Shown: positions 2,713 through 58,388 of the stretch, piece by piece
How the letters are laid out: every line of letters begins with the position of its first letter
Position numbering within the stretch: the first letter of the stretch is position 1
Assembly: GCA_937941455.1 (NCBI GenBank)
Contig: CALDHM010000007.1
Span: 1-64,000, forward strand
Length of the DNA stretch: 64,000 nt
Direction: 5' to 3'
From: an uncultured Pirellulaceae bacterium
Lineage (GTDB): Bacteria > Planctomycetota > Planctomycetia > Pirellulales > Pirellulaceae
The notes under the pieces: model-generated
Seen by the model: the letters and a program-made list of their open reading frames with translations, nothing else
Told to the model about the DNA's origin: nothing
Database searches by the model: none
Program-made: the position numbers and the translations under genes

Positions 2713-3083
2713 GATGAACGTTGGCTCAAGGGTTCGTGCGTTTCCCGCCGATTGGCCCAAGCCGTACTTAACGGCAAGTTACGAAACCTGGGCCATCAAA
2801 AGGGTTGGATCGCGATCAGGTAGTCCCGTCTTCAAGTTGTTCGCCGTTGGTTGTTCTCTCAGATCACCGTTCAAGATGGGAACGTGTGATCCACCGATAC
2901 CGATTGACCGTAGCATTCCCTTGTCAGGAAATTTCGAAGGGAATTTAGCATCGGCCTGCCGTTAGCGCTGACATTACGGAGCCGTTCGGTCCCTAGCGCA
3001 TCGCGGCCGACAACGTCGCTTTCACGACGGGCCACAAAGCTCTAGAATTTGCGGGCTACCAACGCATTTTCAGGAGGCACCGC
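2713..3083. other. Intergenic region with possible decayed tail of the recombinase
   Basis: Directly after the TAA at 2710-2712 the same frame stays open for 36 codons to TAG at 2821. It reads like ordinary protein (e.g. 'RRLAQAVLNGKLRNLGHQKG'), suggesting the stop is a later nonsense mutation or that a short helix-turn-helix gene decayed here. Bases 2824-3060 show no convincing gene. AGGAGG at 3072-3077 is the ribosome binding site of the phosphofructokinase gene. Confidence 0.4.
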
Positions 3084-4394
3084 GTGAGCAATTCTCTTTC
3101 GTACCCAGCACGACCCGAAATTCATTTTGAGCGTGTCGCGATCTTGTTCGCCGGTGGCCCGGCACCAGCGGCTAACGCCGTCATTTCGGCAGCTGCCACC
3201 TCGTTCTTGCGAGCCGGTGTCCAAGTCGTGGGTATCCGTCACGGTTACTCCGCGTTAGTCGAATTCGGTCCCGATCGCCCCTTGATCGAGGGCCGCGATT
3301 ACATCCATTTGACTCCGAAGATTCTCTCGCGGACCCGCAACTCCCAAGGGATCATGATCGGCACGGCCCGTACCAATCCTGGGAAATACATTTCTTCGCC
3401 AGACGACTTTGCCGACCCTGAAAAATGCAAACCTTTGCAAGCGACGTATGCGGCATTGCGGTCGATCAATGTCGATGCTCTCATCTCAATCGGCGGTGAT
3501 GACACGCTGAAAACGGCCAACAAATTCAAACTTTATCAGGAGCGTGCCGTCAAGGGAAACAAAACGCTCCCCATCGTTCATTTGCCCAAAACGATCGACA
3601 ACGACTATCACGGTATCGATTTTACATTCGGCTTTTTCACAGCCGTCGATTTTTTGGCCTCCGAAATCCGCAATTTGATCTACGACGCCGAAGTGACTCG
3701 CTCCTATTTCATCGCCGAGACGATGGGGCGCAGTGCGGGCTGGCTGGCTTACGGCGCGGCGATCGCTGGAGAGGCCAGTTTCGTTGTCAGCGTCGAGGAT
3801 ATCAACGGCGAATATCGCGACGAAGAACGGATTACGGCTCCAGATGGTAGTGTCAAAGTTCGCCCGATCATGAATATTCAACGGATCGCCGAGCGAATCG
3901 TCAAAACGATGCTGGCTCGCGAGCGGGAAGGGAAGGAGTACGGCGTGATCGTGCTGGCCGAGGGACTCGCTGAGTATCTCCCCAGCCACTACCTCGAAGG
4001 GGTACGCCGAGACGATCACGGCCATATCTCCATTTCGGAAATCAATCTCTGCGATGTCTTTTCATCCTTGGTCGGCAAAGTTTACACAGAGAAAACCGGG
4101 AAAAAGCGTCGGATCAAGGGTCTGCAACTCGGCTACGAGTCTCGGTGTGCAAAACCCCATGCGTTCGACGTGATGCTCGGCAGCCAGCTCGGCGTGGGAG
4201 CCTTCCGCGCCTTGGCCGAGAAGAAACTGAATGGCGTGATGGTCTCCGTGACAGGTCAACTCGATCTGCACTATGAGCCGTTTGAAAAATTGGTCGATCC
4301 GCAAACGCTGGTGACTCGCGTCCGCTACATCAAACCTTCCAGCGACTTTCATCGCTTGGCGCGGTTCTTGGAAACGCAAGTCGAAGACGATTAG
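3084..4394 (+). CDS. pfp: 6-phosphofructokinase, PPi-dependent type
   Basis: 436 residues from a GTG start placed 6 bases after a perfect AGGAGG (3072-3077). Family motifs: phosphate loop 'AILFAGGPAPAANAVI' near the N-terminus, 'ISIGGDDTLKTA' (GGDDT at 137-141) and 'LPKTIDNDYHG' (PKTIDND at 168-174). An Asp following GGD, where ATP enzymes carry GGDGS, together with a Lys in PKTIDND, is the mark of pyrophosphate-using enzymes, which phosphorylate fructose 6-phosphate reversibly in the cytoplasm. 'ETMGRSAGWLAYGAAIA' and 'EGLAEYLP' complete the substrate pocket. It stands alone as a transcription unit; no allosteric domain is visible. The donor preference is inferred from these residues. Confidence 0.93.
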   Translation: MSNSLSYPARPEIHFERVAILFAGGPAPAANAVISAAATSFLRAGVQVVGIRHGYSALVEFGPDRPLIEGRDYIHLTPKILSRTRNSQGIMIGTARTNPGKYISSPDDFADPEKCKPLQATYAALRSINVDALISIGGDDTLKTANKFKLYQERAVKGNKTLPIVHLPKTIDNDYHGIDFTFGFFTAVDFLASEIRNLIYDAEVTRSYFIAETMGRSAGWLAYGAAIAGEASFVVSVEDINGEYRDEERITAPDGSVKVRPIMNIQRIAERIVKTMLAREREGKEYGVIVLAEGLAEYLPSHYLEGVRRDDHGHISISEINLCDVFSSLVGKVYTEKTGKKRRIKGLQLGYESRCAKPHAFDVMLGSQLGVGAFRALAEKKLNGVMVSVTGQLDLHYEPFEKLVDPQTLVTRVRYIKPSSDFHRLARFLETQVEDD

Positions 4395-55191: not shown

Positions 55192-55935
55192 TCACCGCCA
55201 TAAGTGATCATCGCTAAATGGGTGAAGCGGAGCGTCGAACTTTGGCGCGGGGAGAGCCTTGAGGCACGCGGCCGCCAAACTCAAGTCGGCCTTCGTCGTG
55301 ATCTTCACGTTGAGCGGAGACCCCTGGACGATCCGCACGGGATGCCCGAGAGCCTCGACCAGTTGCGCTTCGTCGGTCGGCGGGAGCGTCGGGTCTCGCT
55401 TGGCGAAGGCCTCTTGGAGCAGGGCCTTGGCGTACACTTGGGGGGTCTGTGCCAGCCAGAGCTTTTCGCGACTCACCGTCTTCGTCACCGATTTTCCATC
55501 CTCGGAATGTTTGATGGTGCTGGTAATCGGTGTGGCCAAGATCGCAGCTTTTGAATCTACGCCCACCGCCAGAACATCCTCGATCCATTCCTCTGCGAGA
55601 CAAGGCCGAGCGCCGTCGTGAATCACGACAAAGTCACAATCCGAGGAAACCTTGGCCAGCCCTCGCTCGATACTGTGAAATCGTTCCTCGCCACCCAGCA
55701 CGACATCGATCCCCATCACCGCGACATTGGCTCCAAAGCGGGACATGAAATCCTCGCGATCCTCCGGGGCGATGACCACGATCAGTTGGCCAACATCCTT
55801 GCGACCCAAAAATTTTTCTGCCGAGTACAGCCAGACGGCTTTTTGATTCAGCAGCGCAAACGGCTTTTTGTAGAAAGGATCACGGAATCGCGTGCTGCGT
55901 CCGGCGGCGGCGATGATCACGGAAAAGCGAGCCAT
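55192..55935 (-). CDS. ispD: 2-C-methyl-D-erythritol 4-phosphate cytidylyltransferase
   Basis: 247 residues. 'SVIIAAAGRSTRFRDPFYKK' is the CTP-binding loop (GxSTRF variant), 'VVIHDGARPCLAEEWIEDVL' and 'AAILATPITSTIKHSEDGKS' line the pocket, and 'LWLAQTPQVYAKALLQEAFA' and 'VRIVQGSPLNVKITTKADLS' are the C-terminal family marks. The enzyme makes CDP-ME in the non-mevalonate isoprenoid route. It starts 20 bases after the deiodinase-like gene ends, on the same strand, and is probably co-transcribed. The usual partner ispF is not here. Confidence 0.95.
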   Translation of the reverse strand: MARFSVIIAAAGRSTRFRDPFYKKPFALLNQKAVWLYSAEKFLGRKDVGQLIVVIAPEDREDFMSRFGANVAVMGIDVVLGGEERFHSIERGLAKVSSDCDFVVIHDGARPCLAEEWIEDVLAVGVDSKAAILATPITSTIKHSEDGKSVTKTVSREKLWLAQTPQVYAKALLQEAFAKRDPTLPPTDEAQLVEALGHPVRIVQGSPLNVKITTKADLSLAAACLKALPAPKFDAPLHPFSDDHLWR

Positions 55936-55954: not shown

Positions 55955-56668
55955 TCAACGTGTTTTGGAAGGTTGAGTCCCCACAGCGGCAGGGGTCAGA
56001 TCGGCCCGATGCGTTCGCACGGCTTGCGCGATTTGCTGAGGATCGGCCCAAGGAAATTTGGCGATGACCTTTCCGCTGGGGTCGATGATGAAGGCAGGGC
56101 TGGGCAAGTCGCTGAACAACTCTCGGCTCCGGTCATCGAGCGGATCAATCAAAATCTGCATATTCAATTCCAATTCGTCTTTCATCCGCTGCGCTAGTTC
56201 ACAGCGCTCCGCCAGCGTCTGTGGCTGTGCAATCTCCTTGAACGCCATGCGACTGACATGCGGTTCCTTCTGTGCGACAACGACCATCACGACGTCGGAT
56301 CGATCCGCCCATTGATCGTGCAATCTCCGCAACCCGGCGGAGGCTCGACGAAACGGCGGTCACGTGTACCCGCCCTTAATCAAGACCAAGGTCTTGCCGC
56401 GAAAATCGCTAAGTTTTACCGGATTTCCCGCCGGGTCCAGTAATTCCACGTCCGGAGCCATCGTTCCGACCGCTGGAGCGGCGACGAGAAACTGCGCCGC
56501 ATCGTACAGCGACTCGCGCCGCTTTTCCATTTGCCCCCAAACCGTTGCACTGAGGCAGATCAAACCAAGGCTCAGGAGGAACCGCCGCGCGCCGTAGCAA
56601 CGGGCCTCGCGTTTAATCGCAGGCCAAGAAAATTGACGAAGGTTATTGCCAAGCCGCTTAGGATACAT
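55955..56668 (-). CDS. Deiodinase-like redoxin, predicted selenoprotein (in-frame TGA = Sec103)
   Basis: ATG at 56668 (a TTG at 56698 is also in frame) opens an exported protein with a hydrophobic signal (RRFLLSLGLICLSATVWGQ). The thioredoxin fold begins at 'APDVELLDPAGNPVKLSDFR' and reaches 'LVLIKGGYT', then TGA (56362-56360), then 'PPFRRASAGLRRLHDQWADR' in the same frame, continuing to TAA-type end at 55955. Iodothyronine deiodinases read 'FGSCT-Sec-PPF', and bacterial relatives put Cys or Sec at this spot. The downstream half also matches deiodinases ('AFKEIAQ', 'ILIDPLDDRSRELFSDLPSP'). A SECIS-like hairpin follows the TGA. The rest of the fold is intact, which argues against decay. Role: thiol/peroxide redox chemistry, substrate unknown. 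Confidence 0.8.
56325..56342 (-). promoter_or_regulatory. Candidate bacterial SECIS hairpin
   Basis: On the minus strand CTCCGC and GCGGAG form a perfect 6-bp stem around a CGGGTT loop. The loop starts 24 bases after the TGA and has G as its second base, both within published limits for bacterial SECIS elements (UGA-to-loop distance about 16-37 bases, G in the first two loop positions). A further TCGT / ACGA pair lies below an internal loop. Confidence 0.65.
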
Positions 56669-56772: not shown

Positions 56773-57930
56773 TTATTTGGTTGGAGCTGAGAATTTGTCC
56801 GGGACGGCATCGCGTGCCACCCGAAATCCAAAATCGTCGGTCATGGTCGCGGGGTTCTGCCTCATGCGAAAGCTATTCCGCAGGTACATGCCGTCCAAAA
56901 CAAACGATCCGCCACGCAGCACTGCCGTCATCGGATCGCTGGGATCGGTCGATCGAACTTTCCCGGCCACCCATTCGAAGGCGTTTCCCGTCATGTCGTA
57001 GACCCCAAAACCGTTGGCGCCGAATTTCCGCACCGCCATCAGCTGCCCACTTTCTTGATTCGCCCGCTGGGGATGGTAAGTATTCCCATAGCTGTAAATG
57101 AATGTGTATGGTCCGCCTGCCGCTTTTTCCCATTCGTCCTCCGTCGGCAAACGATAGTTCCTTCCGGTTTTTTCCGACAGCCATCGACAATAGGCGGTTG
57201 CCCCATCAAAGGTTACGGTAACGACCGGGAAATCGGGGGCCGTGGCCTCGAAGCGTCCGTTCTGCAACTTGATGCGGCATTTGCGGCTGTCAAGATCCAG
57301 CCAGCCCGAAACAATATCGGTTTGAGCGTTGAGGAACTCGGCGTATTGAGCATTGGTGACTTCGGTTTCGCCGATCCAGAATCCTGGGAGTTCGACCAAC
57401 CGCAGCGGTCGCTCATCGGGTTGGCCGACACCCAAACGGTCACCCACCAGTGCGGGGCCTGGGGGAATCCAGCAGAATCCCGCTTCGCTTCGCAACCAGG
57501 ATTGGTCGGAAACTCCGATGGTGAACATCGGCCGATTGCTTTTGGAATCGGGTTCGTGCTGCGCATCGGTCCGGTCGCGAGGCATCGGTGCAGCCCGCGC
57601 CGAGTCTTTTACGAGTGCGTCATGCCAAGCCGGCACGGGGACCCGAATGACTTGGTTCCTCGCCCGATTCACAGGACTTACCAAACAGTAAATCCCCGAC
57701 GGCACGTCGATCTGAAAGCGATCACGATCGCCGCATTCGATGACCTTCTCGGTCACATCCCCGCGAACGCGCAGCAGTGTTAGGGGCTGTCCCGTCGAAT
57801 TCACAACGTCGACCACTACCCGCGGCGCGTCCAGGGTTACGGTCAATGGGCGATCGTCATTCACTTGGGCGTTCGCCGCGCCGACATAAAGGGCGAATAC
57901 GAAAAAATTGATAAAACACGGCACGCGCAT
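56773..57930 (-). CDS. Exported formylglycine-generating-enzyme-like (SUMF1) protein
   Basis: 385 residues from ATG 57930 (MRVPCFINFFVFALYVGAAN), a signal peptide. After a ~120-residue beta-rich region, the FGE-sulfatase domain starts with 'WIPPGPALVGDRLGVGQPDE', then 'LPGFWIGETEVTNAQYAEFL', 'NYRLPTEDEWEKAAGG', 'NGFGVYDMTGNAFEWVAGKV' and 'LRGGSFVLDGMYLRNSFRMR'. True FGEs use a Cys pair in the last third; I do not see it here, so this is more likely a binding or other non-FGE relative. It is upstream of the deiodinase-like gene on the same strand, 104 bases apart. Confidence 0.85.
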   Translation of the reverse strand: MRVPCFINFFVFALYVGAANAQVNDDRPLTVTLDAPRVVVDVVNSTGQPLTLLRVRGDVTEKVIECGDRDRFQIDVPSGIYCLVSPVNRARNQVIRVPVPAWHDALVKDSARAAPMPRDRTDAQHEPDSKSNRPMFTIGVSDQSWLRSEAGFCWIPPGPALVGDRLGVGQPDERPLRLVELPGFWIGETEVTNAQYAEFLNAQTDIVSGWLDLDSRKCRIKLQNGRFEATAPDFPVVTVTFDGATAYCRWLSEKTGRNYRLPTEDEWEKAAGGPYTFIYSYGNTYHPQRANQESGQLMAVRKFGANGFGVYDMTGNAFEWVAGKVRSTDPSDPMTAVLRGGSFVLDGMYLRNSFRMRQNPATMTDDFGFRVARDAVPDKFSAPTK

Positions 57931-58156
57931 GGTGCATGTCCTCGATTCGTCTCGTCTCCTGATTGGTCTCATCTCCTCGATTCGTCATGGGGCAGAGTTT
58001 CCCTACGCTGAAACTCCGCGGGCCAGCGGCGCGGACACCCCTCCCCCAAAGTGTGCGCGAACGGTTTCCCCAAAGGTTCCCCGAGCGTGGTACGATCAGG
58101 GTCAAAAAATTTTTTCTGCGACAAATCGCGAAGCCGCCAACCAAGTCCCAACACGC

Positions 58157-58201: not shown

Positions 58202-58274
58202 TGGAGACGATCGGGATCGAACCGACAACCCCCTGCTTGCAAAGCAGGTGCTCTCCCAATTGAGCTACGTCCCC
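58202..58274 (-). tRNA. tRNA-Ala (anticodon TGC)
   Basis: 73 bases. Acceptor GGGGACG pairs with CGTCTCC (one G-U/T pair), D arm 'TAGCTCAATTGGGAGAGC', anticodon loop 'CTTTGCAAG' with TGC, and T arm 'GTCGGTTCGATCCCGAT'. Discriminator base A; CCA is not encoded. It follows tRNA-Ile on the same strand. Confidence 0.95.
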
Positions 58275-58314
58275 GTCATCAACAAAAATTCCGAAAACTT
58301 TCGAATCCGTCCAG

Positions 58315-58388
58315 TGGGCGTGCCAGAACTCGAATCTGGGACCTCGTCGTTATCAGCGACGCGCTCTAACCAACTGAGCTACACGCCC
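58315..58388 (-). tRNA. tRNA-Ile (anticodon GAT)
   Basis: 74 bases. Acceptor GGGCGTG pairs with CACGCCC, D arm 'TAGCTCAGTTGGTTAGAGC', anticodon loop 'GCTGATAAC' with GAT, T arm 'CAGATTCGAGTTCTG', discriminator A; CCA not encoded. It is the promoter-proximal gene of a two-tRNA unit that is not inside an rRNA operon in this window. Confidence 0.95.

Follow-up and report, generated by a model that had tools for sequence, protein, structure and literature searches.

A deiodinase-like selenoprotein gene and its conserved FGE-like neighbour in Planctomycetota

The DNA analysed here (the window) is a 64,000-nucleotide stretch of the genome of an uncultured Pirellulaceae bacterium. It carries a gene in which an in-frame TGA falls where deiodinases place their catalytic selenocysteine (Sec). 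Is this TGA read as Sec or does it end the protein, and, if it is read, what kind of enzyme results and with what does it work? Bacterial deiodinase-like proteins with Sec were reported in 2005 from Sargasso Sea data (PMC1088965), and recent reviews list such selenoproteins (PMC9312934; with PF00837 and the motif UxxC, PMC13188914). The Porphyra planctomycete paper (PMC4807772) describes selenoproteins in two planctomycetes.

In this study, we compare the window gene with its orthologues, its more distant homologues and its genomic surroundings. The explanation that best accounts for the whole, and that we regard as highly probable, is an exported selenoprotein, placed in the deiodinase-like branch of the thioredoxin superfamily and paired with a protein like the formylglycine-generating enzyme (FGE), which has the sulfatase-modifying-factor fold. 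Comparison at the sequence level demonstrated the Sec decoding, the kinship with deiodinases, the existence of the clade and the linkage. The linked clade, previously undescribed, and its FGE-like link are the new part of this work. Neither the clade nor its partner turned up in open-licence papers on Planctomycetota selenoproteins or on FGE together with deiodinases.

The gene and its conserved in-frame TGA

The coding sequence occupies positions 55955..56668 on the minus strand. Its frame opens with ATG at 56668 (MYPKRLGN...), passes the internal TGA at 56362-56360, and terminates at a second TGA at 55957-55955, giving 237 residues. A preliminary description of this DNA had these positions right, and the frame was confirmed there; the strand, which it left out, is minus. 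Its peptide LVLIKGGYT-TGA-PPFRRASAGL, read with no shift, was found as an exact match on that strand. The protein consists of a hydrophobic signal region followed by a thioredoxin-type domain with LIKGGYT-U-PPFRRASAGLRRL, and its catalytic position is the TGA (56360..56362, minus strand), in the context GGYT-U-PPFRR. The signal peptide region, encoded by 56531..56668 (minus strand) and ending in RRFLLSLGLICLSATVWG before a Q, was predicted from the sequence and from orthologues by eye, with no signal-peptide program; in the orthologue comparison a conserved QM-x-x-R motif opens the mature proteins. Ordinary gene finding, as in annotation software, would cut the protein in two at the internal TGA, and both the Sec protein and its FGE-like link are therefore easily missed.

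Orthologues were sought at family, order and phylum level and in named genome contigs, and ten distinct genomes, including that of the window, were obtained. The clade comprises the window, L024 and L025 (both from uncultured Pirellulaceae), G031, G403, G473, G680, G707, G619 and G650, and spans at least three planctomycete families. The orthologues share 41-54% identity with the window protein. Orthologues had been proposed as the way to tell Cys from TGA at this site, and the aligned codon proved to be TGA in all ten genomes and Cys in none. Outside the clade, 15 homologues carry Cys there. Invariant residues flank the TGA on both sides in the ten-protein alignment, with more of them downstream, and dN/dS between L024 and L025 is 0.12 upstream and 0.10 downstream. 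The downstream half is thus translated, and the earlier statement that the TGA is not the onset of decay agrees with this purifying selection.

These data bear directly on the simplest alternative, that a nonsense mutation has made the TGA a true end of a gene in decay, or that it is an assembly error for TGC or TGT. The draft genome consists of 77 contigs, one of which (C74) carries a deiodinase-like paralogue that is broken, and both facts would favour such an event. Against it, ten genomes that were assembled separately all have TGA at this codon, selection downstream is purifying, and the SECIS covaries as described below, so that we consider this explanation to have a negligible chance of being correct. 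The paralogue itself (L094, ~2740-3240) is a Cys form, GNFTCGPF, broken by a TAG and a frame change, which suggests a pseudogene or a fault of assembly.

The downstream stem-loop and the decoding machinery

A stem-loop, CTCCGC-CGGGTT-GCGGAG, lies at 56325..56342 on the minus strand, with its stem at nucleotides 18-23 and 30-35 and its loop at nucleotides 24-29 after the TGA. The geometry first given for it, a 6-bp stem starting 17 nt after the TGA and a 6-nt loop from nucleotide 24 with G in second place, is accurate. Criteria for a bacterial SECIS are a loop of 3-9 nt, a stem of 4-16 bp, a G among the first two bases of the loop, and a loop 16-37 nt from the UGA (PMC13188914). The window hairpin, which has a 6-nt loop at nucleotide 24, a G as the second loop base and a 6-bp stem, lies within these limits, as had been suggested.

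Taken alone, the window hairpin is no better than chance in codon shuffles (p = 0.20), and the 45-nt region as a whole folds like its own shuffles (z = 0.12). The minimum free energy structure of the region differs from the proposed hairpin; the centroid structure is that hairpin. In the orthologues the hairpin begins 17 nt past the TGA in 10/10 genomes. Its loop is CGGGTT across the clade except for CGGGCT in two genomes and CGTGTT in one, and 98.3% of the stem positions over the ten sequences form standard pairs. Three of the six stem pairs (1, 2 and 6) show two-sided changes, switching between C-G and U-A or between G-C and U-A. None of 500 shuffles matched the observed pairing percentage or covariation score, and slid controls were far lower. 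By sequence comparison, then, the hairpin is a bacterial SECIS, significant solely through the ten-genome comparison; the SECIS-like hairpin of the preliminary description gains a covarying stem and loses significance in the window sequence taken by itself. More broadly, over 36 Sec and 15 Cys deiodinase-like sites, hairpins are stronger after Sec codons than after the aligned Cys codons (Mann-Whitney p = 5e-7).

Other planctomycete clades of Sec deiodinase-like genes have their own clade-specific SECIS hairpins, with loops GUU, GGC, GGU or GGUC at 18-26 nt (L027, L029, L031, L033, L035, L037-L039, L042, L043-L045, L049 and L079-L083). Several planctomycete genomes contain more than one Sec deiodinase-like gene.

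All four components of Sec decoding that had been named as worth seeking were found in the window's genome: SelB on contig C8 (334.8 bits over cut-off), tRNA-Sec on contig C5 (70.7 bits; called tRNA-SeC(tca) by ARAGORN), SelA on contig C10 (564.5 bits), and SelD on contig C73 (364 bits), the last with an in-frame TGA of its own. Across 60 related genomes, SelA occurs in 20 of the 21 that carry a deiodinase-like gene of the TGA form, and in 19 of the remaining 39 (Fisher p = 2e-4). The sole exception, G006 (L044), has a TGA-form gene and no SelA above cut-off, with a completeness rated at 99%; the machinery may have been lost, SelA may fall in a gap, or it may be divergent. The SelD gene of the window's genome (G000:C73:15254-16189; L057, L095) probably encodes a selenoprotein itself.

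Could the UGA be read as some other amino acid, through code reassignment or leaky readthrough? The gene's own terminal stop is TGA, the Sec machinery is complete, the SECIS covaries, and the residue aligns with the Sec or Cys of deiodinases and the Cys of homologues, all of which make such a reading very improbable. The orthologue evidence led us to reject decay, sequencing error and code reassignment alike. Together, the Sec machinery, the conserved TGA, the conserved downstream half and the covarying stem indicate a selenoprotein gene with a bacterial SECIS, and we are nearly certain, as far as comparison of genomes can tell, that its UGA is decoded as Sec. In the mechanism that we propose, SelB and tRNA-Sec would read the UGA at 56362-56360 under the direction of the stem-loop 18-35 nt downstream.

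Relationship to deiodinases and to other redoxins

Profile searches place the window protein among several redoxin families. In Pfam, AhpC-TSA scores 40.0 bits, Redoxin 35.7 and T4_deiodinase (PF00837) 31.5 against a gathering cut-off of 27; the fused orthologue from G031, described below, falls marginally below that cut-off with 26.4 bits. The best NCBIfam match is the deiodinase-related family NF038285 (90.7-91.8 bits, E 1.2e-25), over profile positions 174-322 only and short of its curated cut-off of 250 bits. The same family is the best NCBIfam match in all ten clade members. Residues T56, U57, P58, P59 and H91 are invariant in the ten sequences, and F60 is F or I. When a ten-protein profile was compared with the PDB, mouse DIO2 and DIO3 were the top two entries. 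TCPPF aligned on TCPPF, Cys replacing Sec in the crystal forms, and the His of the conserved E-P-H fell on that of the DIO E-A-H. The T-Sec-PPF placement that had been recognised as typical of deiodinases is thus matched, the T-U-P-P of the clade being aligned with the DIO2/DIO3 active site.

An AlphaFold model of the Sec protein, built from three sequences, is of moderate quality (pLDDT 62, pTM 0.62). With this model, both Foldseek and VIA-align ranked DIO2 and DIO3 first (VIA-align Z 14.7-14.8), within 1 Z of ResA and the peroxiredoxins. The window protein shares with animal DIO2/DIO3 (PDB 9h48, 4tr3) the T-Sec-P-P-F motif, the aligned His, the D-x-M-D region and what is predicted to be the same thioredoxin-type fold. 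It differs in its identity of about 20%, in having no DIO-type transmembrane anchor, and in a bacterial SECIS that lies within the coding region.

The protein could instead be a Sec peroxiredoxin or a ResA/TlpA-like thioredoxin, with thiol peroxidase or disulfide reductase activity in the periplasm. AhpC-TSA outscores T4_deiodinase in Pfam, comparison of the predicted model gives ResA, Bcp and GPx structures Z scores on a par with those of DIO, and peroxidase is the commonest chemistry of Sec redoxins. However, the protein has no CxxC or UxxC as in ResA/TlpA. Nor does it have the peroxiredoxin signature PxxxTxxC/U: in KGGYTU the Thr abuts the Sec and the Pro is missing, the 40-bit PF00578 match nonetheless. 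DIO2/DIO3, which head the PDB matches in both the profile search and Foldseek, are the pattern that its TUPPF, conserved E-P-H and D-x-M-D region follow, and NF038285 is the leading NCBIfam match for the window protein and covers all ten members. We therefore treat the peroxiredoxin or thioredoxin assignment as a serious competitor that is somewhat less probable than its opposite. By motif and similarity the window protein is deiodinase-like, as judged from sequence; its fold, taken by itself, does not tell it apart from other redoxins.

With the known bacterial deiodinase-like selenoproteins, this clade has in common the PF00837 match, the in-frame TGA for Sec, the downstream bacterial SECIS, and Cys homologues elsewhere (PMC1088965, PMC13188914). 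The listed bacterial forms are UxxC, whereas the clade has UPPF or UPPI in its place, no second conserved Cys in the ten-sequence alignment, a predicted signal peptide, Sec in 10/10 members and the FGE-like link. The preliminary description had thought bacterial members mostly Cys proteins and a planctomycete Sec form notable in itself. For planctomycetes this needs correcting: among 50 of their deiodinase-like domains, a sample gathered by similarity to a Sec query, 35 have TGA and 15 have Cys. Since Sec forms are common in Pirellulales and have been known in bacteria since 2005, the Sec form itself is not new.

The FGE-like partner and a possible joint function

The next gene upstream, on the same strand and separated from the Sec gene by 104 nt, encodes an FGE/SUMF1-like protein (56773..57972, minus strand; PF03781, E 1.2e-46), whose Pfam match covers nearly the whole profile. 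The preliminary description had missed this gene. Judged from their N-terminal sequences, it and the Sec protein both appear to be exported. The FGE-like gene holds the same position in 9/10 clade genomes. The exception is G031, where both are joined in a natural fusion (L061:8374-10066, minus strand), in which the Sec deiodinase-like domain is followed by the partner's N-terminal and FGE-like domains. For 40 other deiodinase-like loci, Sec and Cys forms alike, the flanks of roughly 1.5 kb on either side contained no FGE-like gene. The ten linked proteins form one clade, with support of 100/99, and do so in 100% of bootstrap trees. On the downstream side, ispD (55192..55935, minus strand; TIGR00453 above cut-off) begins 19 nt after the Sec gene and stands outside the conserved pair; the corresponding gene in L024 and L025 is a different one, so that conservation does not extend to the downstream neighbour.

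Genes of one operon do not have to interact, and the FGE-like gene might simply share an operon with the Sec gene without functional coupling. The evidence for coupling is that all ten clade members, which come from at least three families, have the link and that 0/40 members of other deiodinase-like clades do, together with the G031 gene fusion and the unconserved downstream neighbour. Only five PF03781 matches occur in the whole 4.04 Mb window genome, and the neighbourhood is thus not explained by abundance. We give an uncoupled neighbour a small chance. Conversely, genome comparison argues strongly that the Sec gene and the FGE-like gene form a conserved, linked two-component module in Planctomycetota.

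The partner shares the PF03781 match with the FGE/SUMF1 family, including its PvdO and EgtB relatives, but is without the catalytic Cys pair of FGE (SYLCHDSYC): both Cys are absent at those positions in 10/10 partners. Because all ten partners lack the pair that makes FGE an oxidase, formylglycine formation is unlikely, and true FGE activity was rejected on this ground. The partner also scored far below the cut-offs of the PvdO, EgtB and SenA models. Its profile matches include 2y3c, which we take to be the Treponema denticola variable protein TvpA. The FGE fold serves as a binding fold too, as in TvpA, and the most likely role of the FGE-like domain would be to bind or present substrate. An AlphaFold model of the partner (pLDDT 34, pTM 0.30) was not used for any conclusion.

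To our knowledge, no function has been assigned to bacterial deiodinase-like selenoproteins since the 2005 report, and the FGE-like link, with its natural fusion, is the first concrete partner lead for any of them. The most likely function of the window protein is that of a periplasmic one-Sec reductase working with the FGE-like protein. In a tentative scheme, more doubtful than not in its chemistry, the Sec selenolate would attack an electrophilic atom, either halogen or peroxide oxygen, in a substrate in the periplasm, helped by the conserved Thr before it, the PP after it, Arg61/Arg62 and His91. The Se-X intermediate would then be reduced by an external thiol; since no resolving Cys is conserved in the Sec protein, we infer that an external reductant is needed. 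The FGE-like domain would hold or present the substrate to the Sec enzyme. Thyroid hormone is an unlikely substrate in what we take to be a free-living bacterium. A bolder and less likely proposal is that the two proteins together make up one extracytoplasmic enzyme whose activity would be new; an example would be a reductive dehalogenation that depends on Sec and acts on a substrate which the FGE-fold subunit holds or modifies. If this were true, the fused G031 protein would be its single-chain version. The clade offers natural material for asking whether Sec chemistry of the deiodinase type had its bacterial beginnings in a reaction other than hormone deiodination.

Upstream of the FGE-like gene, at 58202-58388 of the window (minus strand), tRNA-Ala(tgc) and tRNA-Ile(gat) lie next to each other, a pair that is usually found in rRNA spacers.
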